A DNA stretch of 28,852 bases from a virus, in IMG/VR virus record IMGVR_UViG_3300022074_000275, positions 1-28,852 of that record, one strand, 5' to 3'. The translations under genes and the position numbers were made by a program. Below the pieces are notes generated by a model that was not told the origin of the DNA, searched no databases, and saw only the letters and a program-made list of their open reading frames with translations. Each line of letters opens with the position of its first letter. Positions within the stretch are counted from its first letter, which is position 1. Shown one piece after another: positions 27,256 to 28,852 of this stretch.

Positions 27256-27285
27256 AGTATAAACCATGTGTACATCTGTTGTCAA
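27256..27285 (-). promoter_or_regulatory. Promoter of the main minus-strand (early) operon
   Basis: Read on the minus strand, TTGACA (27285-27280) and TATACT (27261-27256) are separated by 18 bp, an excellent sigma-70 match. Transcription would start near 27249 and reach the first ATG at 27227 after a short leader with GGAGAGGAA. The -10 is immediately followed by TTGT, giving TATACTTGT, the same nine bases as at the next promoter to the right, which suggests shared regulation. Confidence 0.7.
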
Positions 27286-27292
27286 TTCATAT

Positions 27293-27322
27293 AAAAGAAA
27301 AACCCCCTGCAATAACAGAGGG
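27293..27322 (-). terminator. Rho-independent terminator of the two-gene unit
   Basis: On the minus strand CCCTCTG (27322-27316) pairs with CAGGGGG (27309-27303), with one G-T pair and a 6-base loop. The run TTTTTCTTTT (27302-27293) follows at once. It ends the transcript of the 60-aa gene and insulates it from the early promoter whose -35 begins 8 bases further on. Confidence 0.78.
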
Positions 27323-27336
27323 CTTTCCTTCGTATC

Positions 27337-27358
27337 GTATAACTAAGGGGAGTTATAC
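27337..27358 (-). promoter_or_regulatory. 3' hairpin whose loop is antisense to the unit's own ribosome binding sites
   Basis: GTATAACT and AGTTATAC form a perfect 8-bp stem around a 6-base loop, overlapping the stop codon of the 60-aa gene (plus-strand TTA at 27353-27355). In the minus-strand RNA the loop reads CCCCTT, within CTCCCCTTAGTT (27352-27341). This is the exact 12-base complement of AACTAAGGGGAG, the ribosome site region of the same gene (27552-27541). The 126-aa gene has the near-identical AACTAAGGGAG. Translation control by loop-ribosome-site pairing, or mRNA circularisation, is inferred. Confidence 0.5.
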
Positions 27359-27535
27359 AGTTGTTCTAGGTTTTGTAAAACATAAACTCAAATTATCTTT
27401 AAGTTTTTTTTGTAAATCATACATTAAAGAATTATGCACCTGTGTTGATATATAAGCTAATTCATAATCAGTAAGTTCAATACCATTAGGTAAATTCTCT
27501 TTAATTTCTTTTTGTATTATCTCTGTTGTTTTCAT
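27353..27535 (-). CDS. Unknown small protein (60 aa), second gene of the two-gene unit
   Basis: MKTTEIIQKEIKENLPNGIE, then LTDYELAYISTQVHNSLMYD, then a Lys-rich helix and FTKPRTTV. It looks wholly helical and may dimerise. AAGGGGAG lies 5 bases upstream of the ATG. The gene is followed by a hairpin antisense to that site and then by a strong terminator. Regulated this tightly, it may be a small regulator or a protein that is harmful when overproduced; nothing in its sequence identifies a family. Confidence 0.6.
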   Translation of the reverse strand: MKTTEIIQKEIKENLPNGIELTDYELAYISTQVHNSLMYDLQKKLKDNLSLCFTKPRTTV

Positions 27536-27573
27536 TTTCTCTCCCCTTAGTTTTGGCTTTATCTTTTATAAAG

Positions 27574-27609
27574 CTCCTAGAGGATACCTGTTAAAATATC
27601 CTCCTAGAG
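27574..27609. repeat. Paired 9-bp repeat inside an imperfect hairpin, in the 79-bp gap between the two genes
   Basis: CTCCTAGAG occurs at 27574-27582 and again at 27601-27609 (centres 27 bp apart). Between them AGGATA (27581-27586) and TATCCT (27597-27602) are inverted and can pair. The gap has no clear promoter or coding frame. It could be a protein-binding site or an RNA fold between the two genes. Confidence 0.5.
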
Positions 27610-27614
27610 TTTTA

Positions 27615-27995
27615 CTAAGCTAAATAATTATATTGCTTAAATTTAGCTCCTCTTTCAAAGCTGCTAGGCGTAGCTTTGTGTAACTGTCCACTTCTAAGAT
27701 ATCTTTTAACTTGCTCTACATCCCATTTTCTTGTGTTCTTTTCTTGATACCAGGTTACTTTGTTATATTCTGTGTCAGTTACAAACCCAATAACCATAGT
27801 TTTTTTGTTAACTCTCACAATATATGCAGGGTATGTGTTGCCATTTTCTGTGGTTACTGCAATTGGTGTACCCTTGTGAAATTGACCTAGAAATAATTCT
27901 GCCCTGAAATTTTGTACATCTTTAATAGTTGCTTGTGCAACTTTTAATTCATGGTCAGTAAATTCCTTTAAGTCATTTCTTGTTAATTTATTCAT
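27615..27995 (-). CDS. Unknown protein with small beta-barrel-like core (126 aa)
   Basis: Begins MNKLTRNDLKEFTDHELKVA, then a helix (TIKDVQNFRAELF). Residues ~41-75 look like an SH3/KOW-type barrel (GTPIAVTTENGNTYPAYIVR, then KKTMVIGFVTD), followed by a basic Trp/Tyr-rich part (YQEKNTRKWDVEQVKRYLRS). AAGGGAG lies upstream of the ATG. It is the first gene of the unit from the promoter at 28034-28061, directly downstream of a palindromic operator. A role in nucleic-acid binding or transcription takeover fits the fold guess, but no family match is claimed. Confidence 0.62.
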   Translation of the reverse strand: MNKLTRNDLKEFTDHELKVAQATIKDVQNFRAELFLGQFHKGTPIAVTTENGNTYPAYIVRVNKKTMVIGFVTDTEYNKVTWYQEKNTRKWDVEQVKRYLRSGQLHKATPSSFERGAKFKQYNYLA

Positions 27996-28020
27996 TGTCT
28001 TAGTCTCCCTTAGTTAATTA

Positions 28021-28038
28021 ATACTTGTAAACAAGTAT
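28021..28038. promoter_or_regulatory. Perfect palindromic operator overlapping a -10 element
   Basis: ATACTTGT-AA-ACAAGTAT is a perfect 18-bp palindrome with 8-bp arms covering most of the -10 at 28034-28039. The half-site ACAAGTAT recurs at 27253-27260, in the same place relative to the early -10, and ACAAGTAC follows the -10 of the rightward promoter at 28672-28679. A dimeric repressor acting at several promoters is inferred. Confidence 0.6.
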
Positions 28039-28061
28039 AGACTATATATTATTTATTGCAA
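28034..28061 (-). promoter_or_regulatory. Promoter of the two-gene unit
   Basis: On the minus strand TTGCAA (28061-28056) and TATACT (28039-28034) are 16 bp apart. The predicted start is near 28027, giving a ~30-nt leader with AAGGGAG before the ATG at 27995. The palindromic operator overlaps its -10 and start site, so a bound repressor would block it. Confidence 0.6.
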
Positions 28062-28062
28062 G

Positions 28063-28251
28063 TTATTTAATAAAGTTTTTTTTCTGGGTTTCAATATGGG
28101 TGGGGGGTGTTCTAAAGTTTTTCCTATAAGTCTTCATGCATATAGCCACAACACCCACACAGAATAAAACATTTAACCACAGATGAATTCTAGAAAACTT
28201 CAAGAGGTTATATATGGTAAAAATTACCAATAAAATAAATGGTAATGTCAA
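28063..28251 (-). CDS. Doubtful small membrane protein (62 aa, TTG start)
   Basis: The frame reads MTLPFILLVIFTIYNLLKFS, then RIHLWLNVLFCVGVVAICMK and a basic tail, giving two hydrophobic spans. The only upstream start is TTG at 28251 with GGGGGA about 7 bases before it, not a normal ribosome site, and no ATG lies near the N-terminus. AT-rich DNA makes hydrophobic frames by chance. It is kept as possible because the length and layout match other small phage membrane proteins and the stop clears the next promoter. Confidence 0.33.
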   Translation of the reverse strand: MTLPFILLVIFTIYNLLKFSRIHLWLNVLFCVGVVAICMKTYRKNFRTPPTHIETQKKNFIK

Positions 28252-28332
28252 TCTGCGTCCCCCATTATTATATGTCTTAGATACCTATATTTAACTTACA
28301 CAAAGTGAACAATACAGTAAACAATTGGTCTA

Positions 28333-28449
28333 CTATATATTGTGTGTTTTACCTGACATACTACATCTAGTAGGTGCACTATCACAGTAGTACCTTGGTT
28401 GATTACCTATCTGTTTAAGTGTATTCTTACACTCTTTACATTTCTTCAA
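28333..28449 (-). CDS. Candidate 38-aa zinc-finger-like protein (TTG start)
   Basis: The frame from TTG at 28449 reads MKKCKECKNTLKQIGNQPRY then YCDSAPTRCSMSGKTHNI. Cys4-x2-Cys7, Cys22 and Cys29 with a YYCD turn match the layout of small phage zinc-ribbon proteins. Codon use is like its neighbours. The weak points are the TTG start and the lack of a clear ribosome site. It is isolated: non-coding DNA lies on both sides. Confidence 0.45.
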   Translation of the reverse strand: MKKCKECKNTLKQIGNQPRYYCDSAPTRCSMSGKTHNI

Positions 28450-28478
28450 TAGTGTCTAGTCTAGCTCGTTTTTTATAA

Positions 28479-28602
28479 CAGGCATCCAATGCAATATAGT
28501 TGCGATTCTGCCTGATTAGATAGTTTGGTTAGACCTTGGGTAGCTTACTTGTCTTTCTAGTTGGTCAGGTTTCCCTGGTAAGCCTTTTGTGCTCCTGATG
28601 CC
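28479..28602. other. Gene-free, GC-richer region with nested inverted repeats
   Basis: From 28450 to ~28640 no supported gene is seen. CAGGCA (28479-28484) pairs with TGCCTG (28509-28514); inside it AAT-GCAA pairs with TTGC-g-ATT. GCTTAC (28543-28548) pairs with GTAAGC (28578-28583) around CAGG-TTTC-CCTG (28566-28577). GGCATC (28481-28486) can also pair with GATGCC (28597-28602), closing the whole block. Base composition differs from the flanks. It could be a structured RNA or a replication-origin-like element. Confidence 0.45.
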
Positions 28603-28643
28603 CTCTTTACCTGTATCTACTTACTCCTAAATAATATTTATAG

Positions 28644-28671
28644 TTGAATAATAACATGGGTTCTGTATAAT
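28644..28671 (+). promoter_or_regulatory. Rightward promoter near the right edge
   Basis: TTGAAT (28644-28649) and a perfect TATAAT (28666-28671) are 16 bp apart. Transcription would begin near 28678 and run out through the three hairpins of the candidate RNA. ACAAGTAC just after the -10 resembles the operator half-site at the other promoters. Confidence 0.62.
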
Positions 28672-28677
28672 ACAAGT

Positions 28678-28832
28678 ACTGTATGTGAAACACTAAATAA
28701 TTCAGGAAATGGTTTTTCAGGCAACTGATTAGCCATTTTCTGTTATTATGGGAACAACATGATTCTTTATTCATGTTCCTCCCTGTATAGCCCTAGCTTG
28801 TCTAGGGTGTGCAAAATAAAAAATTTTTTTAC
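28678..28832 (+). ncRNA. Candidate small structured RNA with three hairpins
   Basis: No frame longer than a few codons follows the promoter at 28644-28671. Hairpin 1: CAGGAAATGG (28703-28712) pairs with CCATTTTCTG (28733-28742), 10 bp with one G-T, enclosing a second stem TCAG/CTGA (28717-28728) closed by a GCAA tetraloop. Hairpin 2: GGGA plus AACATGA (28750-28762) pairs with TCATGTT plus TCCC (28771-28783), with a 2x2 internal loop. Hairpin 3: CCCTAG (28791-28796) pairs with CTAGGG (28802-28807), loop CTTGT, then a T-run at ~28824-28830 that could end the RNA, though it lies ~16 bases after the stem. No known RNA class is recognised. Confidence 0.58.
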
Positions 28833-28852
28833 GCCTCTAATAAACTATAAAC

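Follow-up and report, generated by a model that had tools for sequence, protein, structure and literature searches.

A conserved 3' element complementary to the Shine-Dalgarno leaders of swappable genes in a phage operon

A minus-strand operon in the analyzed phage DNA (the window, the whole stretch of 28,852 nucleotides) ends in a C-rich 3' element whose sequence complements the leader of each of its two genes. In relatives from the same family of uncultured marine phages, the complementarity persists though the genes between the two segments differ. As the tail module is kept behind changing genes that carry AACTAAGG leaders, a conserved 3' anti-Shine-Dalgarno element, as judged from sequence comparison, faces swappable leaders. 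This element, which persists through gene swaps, may pair with the leaders of its own operon and limit their translation, a reading on which our confidence is evenly balanced. The original prediction had described a hairpin loop antisense to the ribosome site of its own gene. The observation is real and broader than that: an operon-wide pair of leader and tail was found in place of a single gene's ribosome site, and the perfect 12-bp match is one length variant of it.

Organization of the operon

The features of the operon are compiled in Table 1. The transcript presumably starts near 28027, and a TATACT-like box also lies upstream of many first-gene leaders in the relatives. AACTAAGGGGAG occurs in the window exactly twice, at 27341-27352 (+) and 27541-27552 (-), which confirmed the perfect 12-base complement between ribosome site and 3' hairpin. 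ORF positions and folding likewise bore out that these segments bracket the 60-aa gene, with the hairpin over its stop codon and a terminator behind it. The upstream 126-aa gene carries a related leader as proposed; its UAACUAAGGG stretch has 10 bases of complementarity to the 3' element. Module A forms two stacked hairpins, the 5' arm of the first holding AGGAGG and the loop being variable; it may serve in RNA processing or as a translational spacer.

Table 1. Features of the operon and its flanks in the window
Feature	Position	Strand	Remark
Operon promoter, predicted (TTGCAA-16-TATACT)	28034-28061	-	9/12 against consensus, the sole basis of the call
Operon transcript	28027-27293	-	Ends in stop codon, hairpin, and terminator module
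Leader 1, AACTAAGGGAG, ribosome site of 126-aa gene	28005-28015	-	
126-aa ORF	27615-27995	-	Other genes at its place in relatives
Module A, intergenic hairpins CTCTAGGAGGATA/TATCCTCTAGGAG and GCTTTATAAAAGATAAAGC	27553-27615	-	Conserved between differing gene pairs in relatives
Leader 2, AACTAAGGGGAG, ribosome site of 60-aa gene	27541-27552	-	12 bases complementary to 3' element
60-aa ORF	27353-27535	-	One among nine last-gene families at this place
Module B hairpin, GTATAACT-CCCCTT-AGTTATAC	27337-27358	-	UAA stop of last gene within 5' arm
Putative anti-Shine-Dalgarno element, CTCCCCTTAGTT, conserved core CCCTTAGTT	27341-27352	-	From sequence complementarity
Intrinsic terminator (A-tract/GC stem/T-tract), strong hairpin	27294-27331	-	From folding; missed by simple terminator scan
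Predicted promoter of next operon (TTGACA-18-TATACT)	27256-27285	-	11/12 against consensus; adjoins terminator

The 12-base match had been considered very unlikely to arise by chance. This holds once its position is counted, but not for a 12-base inverted repeat as such: one pair of inverted 12-mers spaced 60-400 bases was observed in the window, and 20 Markov windows gave 0-5. For a distal 12-bp complement anywhere within the 741-nt operon, P is about 0.04, while matches of 12 and 9 bp between leader 2 and a random UTR of equal length have a P of about 5e-5 and 0.0025, respectively. As a post hoc observation the 12-mer is weak evidence alone, so the relatives decide, and conservation among them is the decisive support for the reading from sequence rather than the match itself.

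Related contigs and gene swapping

IMG/VR contigs with the hairpin were gathered through DNA pattern and protein searches. In 25 contigs, counting the window and its relatives from IMG/VR, the same module of stop codon, hairpin, and terminator, GTATAACTCCC(C)TTAGTTATACGATACG, closes the operon. Module B comprises GTATAACTCCC(C)TTAGTTATACGATACGAAGGAAAG, followed by a terminator and often by a TTGACA-type promoter, and CCCCTTAGTT is a stretch of its tail element. Nine unrelated last-gene families stand in front of it, and the stop codon lies at most 5 bases from one position in 25/25 contigs, usually as GTA-TAA inside the hairpin. The GC stem and loop of the terminator vary among relatives and the preceding hairpin is constant. 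When a gene family with an internal position in one contig takes the last place in another, it gains a ...TV-stop ending there, and hence module B supplies the stop codon. In L010, which shares a contig with L004, genes of 44 and 110 aa take the place of the 60-aa gene, and an 85-aa gene replaces the 126-aa gene in L016/L061. Module A, located before the 60-aa gene, reads GTAAAACTCTAGGAGGATAT..GGTATCCTCTAGGAGCTTTATAAAAGATAAAGCC and then AAACTAAGGG(G)AG.

Since most family loci were obtained by exact DNA patterns, their invariance is partly ascertained. Eight contigs (L010, L020, L033, L041, L061, L069, L070, and L085) were reached by the exonuclease search too, and all of them carry module B at a fourfold-site divergence of the exonuclease from the window of up to 0.31; of the 337 exonuclease-bearing IMG/VR stretches found, 80 were retained. 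Leader and tail are both nearly invariant, with no clean compensatory change, so that the comparison upheld the retention of complementarity among relatives but yielded no true covariation. Covariation within the hairpin was looked for in the close family, where the stem is invariant and thus speaks neither for nor against the hairpin.

The scaffold L137 has N gaps at 1177-1186 and 2432-2441, where modules A and B are expected, which suggests that the shared modules break metagenome assembly. It was left out of the scoring because the gaps cover its modules.

Leaders and their match to the tail

Of the 37 gene clusters that start independently within the operon, 26 carry the AACTAAGG leader; beyond the operon, the same contigs have it in 1 of 82 such clusters (Fisher P about 2e-16, with counts that are non-independent as the clusters share phylogeny). 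It stands after several promoter types, after module A, or after a short gap; because it occurs behind several promoters and both A-type linkers, the shared part is AACTAAGG(G)AG only. Translationally coupled genes (TAATG) carry GAGGAGGAATAATG in its place. The AACT of the leader is complementary to the AGTT of the tail element and, to our knowledge, lies outside any usual Shine-Dalgarno match.

In every family contig whose leaders can be read, L028 excepted, own leader and own tail are perfectly complementary over 8-13 bases. The commonest pairing is G3 with C4 over 9-11 bases, and the window shares its perfect 12-base match with L060 and L061, which carry the same gene, and with L027, which carries another. 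In L041, the matches between the C3 hairpin and the G3 leaders span 13 and 11 bases, and only G3 leaders occur in the C3-hairpin contigs with readable leaders (L041 and L040/L070). A strict covariation between the number of G in the leader and of C in the tail was sought and is absent, with G2, G3, and G4 all occurring together with C4.

The best-supported rival to regulatory pairing, and one compatible with it, is that modules A and B are regulatory spacers (terminator, promoter, and ribosome site) acting as homologous recombination joints for accessory genes, in which case their conservation would serve solely recombination, termination, and initiation, with the complementarity as a by-product. 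We regard it as possible but somewhat doubtful. It would account for the stop codon given by module B to nine gene families, the ...TV-stop endings of internal families turned last, the contiguity of terminator and next promoter, and the assembly gaps of one scaffold exactly at the expected A and B. The invariant hairpin beside a variable terminator stem, the retention of AACTAAGG behind different promoters, and the complementarity of AACTAAGG to its own operon's tail are all left unexplained by such joints, and distant relatives hold the C-rich motif in non-homologous hairpins. The module layout resembles that of PeSLs of T4-like phages, composite terminator-promoter spacers bordering swappable small genes (Arbiol 2010; Comeau 2014, as cited in PMC4503421), and a conserved terminator and promoter between non-homologous genes was found here as well. 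As far as PeSLs are characterized in that source, the present case differs by a non-T4 marine phage, a spacer that includes the stop codon and the anti-leader hairpin, and a low density of two modules per operon. In the protein comparison, the nearest phages for the major head protein and the exonuclease are non-T4 ones, mostly actinophages.

Distant relatives and counter-examples

Among the matches listed, exonuclease relatives at 84-93% identity carry other hairpins at the same place. L119 and L101 have ACTTAATTAATCCCCTTAGTTAAGT and CTTAATACATCCCCCTTAGTTAAGG there, and L104 and L096 have ATCCCCTTAGTAAAGG/ATCCCCTTAGTGAAGG. All four have AACTAAGG leaders, and past the stop codon they keep UCCCC(C)UUAG(U) within unrelated hairpins. 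Four others (L075, L076, L094, and L106) have C-rich 3' UTR tails without TTAG (ATCTCCCTAAC, ATCCCCCTAACG, and ATCTCCCTGAC), and in these neither a AACTAAGG leader nor a match between tail and leader was found. From these few lineages, the C-rich anti-Shine-Dalgarno 3' UTR looks older than the precise match. The short C-rich motif of these four (ATCTCCCTAAC, ATCCCCCTAACG) lies a few bases past the stop, before the terminators.

There are two counter-examples, L028, which carries module B with AACAAAGGG/AATAAAGGG leaders (a 5-base match), and L081, which has ACCCCTTAGTAA in its 3' UTR and no matching leader. The outcome that would have spoken against the original prediction, one segment kept with complementarity lost, was therefore found in these two contigs and in none of the other 23 that have the 3' motif and readable leaders.

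These exceptions would suit a 3' UTR-derived small RNA of roughly 60 nt, made of hairpin and terminator, whose C-rich loop would target numerous Shine-Dalgarno sequences in trans, in phage or host, the own operon being just one of the targets. It has the expected two-hairpin shape and an invariant UCCCCUU loop, and the S. aureus small RNAs RNAIII and RsaE, as described in passing in PMC3868564, set C-rich loops with a UCCC motif against Shine-Dalgarno sequences and likewise end in a terminator. Their likeness goes no further in that description: the best matches here lie in the own operon and a separate RNA is not indicated. We consider a trans-acting RNA of this kind unlikely, as AACTAAGG is enriched in the same operon and nearly absent elsewhere, which points to own-operon targets. 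A search of the window against Rfam gave no match at gathering score.

A still less probable explanation is chance with shared ancestry, in which C-rich 3' UTRs came by accident, once in an ancestor, to match A-rich leaders bearing a G-rich Shine-Dalgarno sequence, and both were passed on with the modules. The chance rate of 12-base inverted repeats in the window, the lack of strict covariation, and the related L075, L076, L094, and L106 with C-rich 3' UTRs and no match agree with it. Against it, tail motif and leader occurred both in 23 contigs, tail only in 2, leader only in none, and neither in 4, i.e., the leader is present in 23/25 contigs with the tail motif and 0/4 lacking it (P 6e-4 on contig counts, ignoring the tree). 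The match also survives replacement of gene, promoter, and hairpin. A mobile element with terminal inverted repeats was rejected, since the repeats stay and the enclosed genes change.

Folding of leader and tail

Folding was carried out with equilibrium models that leave out ribosomes. Duplex energies were -19.3 kcal/mol for the 12-bp pairing, -16.5 for G3:C3, -13.0 for G3:C4, and -11.1 for AGGAGG:C4, compared with -5.4 to -5.7 kcal/mol for the local hairpin alone; by computation, leader-tail pairing outcompetes the local hairpin. The 60-aa cistron folded alone forms the leader-tail helix with 11.8 of 12 expected pairs. When the whole 741-nt operon is folded, the tail is taken by leader 1 at the 5' end. 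The long-range pairing foreseen for the minus-strand RNA thus formed in the models, and the tail paired with at least one leader in 12/12 operons folded, at about 8-10 expected pairs in total. Scrambled tails keep some pairs, since bases in the flanks are still able to pair, and this makes for a weak control. G-rich Shine-Dalgarno sequences of any kind pair to some degree with a C-rich tail; the internal leader, for instance, scores -8.8 against the tail.

Proposed mechanism and known systems

In a complete transcript, the first gene's AACUAAGG(G)(G)AG leader would base-pair with the UCCCCUUAGUU element, which may also or instead pair with the leader of a later, independently started gene. Pairing could take place in cis, or in trans from another copy of the transcript. 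The duplex would block ribosome entry, so that translation of a message may be shut down by the message itself, and it might be a substrate of RNase III, as in S. aureus icaR. That the two segments pair in the cell, with less translation as the outcome, is our reading of the conserved complementarity. Through the leader shared by most inserted genes and the stop codon supplied by the module, gene swaps would keep the control.

The position of the stop codon suggests that a ribosome terminating on the last gene would cover the anti-leader, keeping translated messages open, and that idle messages alone, finished and untranslated, would close from tail to first leader. A plug-in operon of this type, with a module that carries the last stop and the anti-leader, ribosome-gated closing, and new genes under feedback at once, is put forward tentatively and as an improbable rather than a favored extension of the pairing model.

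Natural gene swapping serves here as a comparative experiment, with nine last-gene families, many first genes, and constant leader-tail complementarity. If confirmed, the pairing would be a phage-family-wide, gene-independent device of mRNA self-silencing and would explain how small phage genes are added without disturbance of dosage. We know of very few worked examples of regulation by 5'-3' UTR pairing in bacteria, icaR being the foremost.

By analogy, the closest known case is the 5'-3' UTR interaction of S. aureus icaR (Ruiz de los Mozos 2013, PMC3868564). There, UCCCCUG in the 3' UTR faces UAGGGGG in the Shine-Dalgarno region, pairing in cis or trans blocks ribosome loading, and repression and RNase III cleavage were shown experimentally (PMC3868564). 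The present operon shares a 3' UTR UCCCC motif, nearly the same, complementary to the Shine-Dalgarno region of its own mRNA, and motif and complementarity are kept while other sequence changes, with the exceptions L028 and L081. It differs in the place of the element, which begins right at the stop codon and sits in a small hairpin beside the terminator, whereas that of icaR lies 260 nt downstream. In addition, the complementarity is longer, extends past the Shine-Dalgarno sequence into AACU, and is conserved through gene swapping, several leaders compete, and the system belongs to a phage operon known from its sequence alone.

Phage, host, and flanking sequences

The nearest named relatives of the exonuclease are nearly all actinophages, and for the head protein actinophages come first, with some proteobacterial phages ranking lower. 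The phage is most likely a marine actinophage, presumably with a marine actinobacterial host. In the bacterial genomes searched, neither the exact motif nor an exonuclease relative was found, and annotated phages included no close DNA relatives. Weak DNA matches were short and partial (E 0.003 or worse), probably terminator-like, and were disregarded. The 60-, 126-, and 105-aa proteins of the window had no match in Pfam or PHROG, and four relatives' genes had none in Pfam, leaving the suggested role of the products as toxic or regulatory proteins unsupported.

The region 28063-28852 (-) is a long, mostly non-coding block with one 55-aa ORF; it has no match in Rfam, and many relatives keep it ahead of the operon. 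A dyad, ATACTTGTTTACAAGTAT, at 28016-28033 (-) overlaps the predicted -10 region of the operon, and CATAGTAATCTATG dyads occur in relatives (e.g., L010) at the same place behind module B. Both are possible operators.
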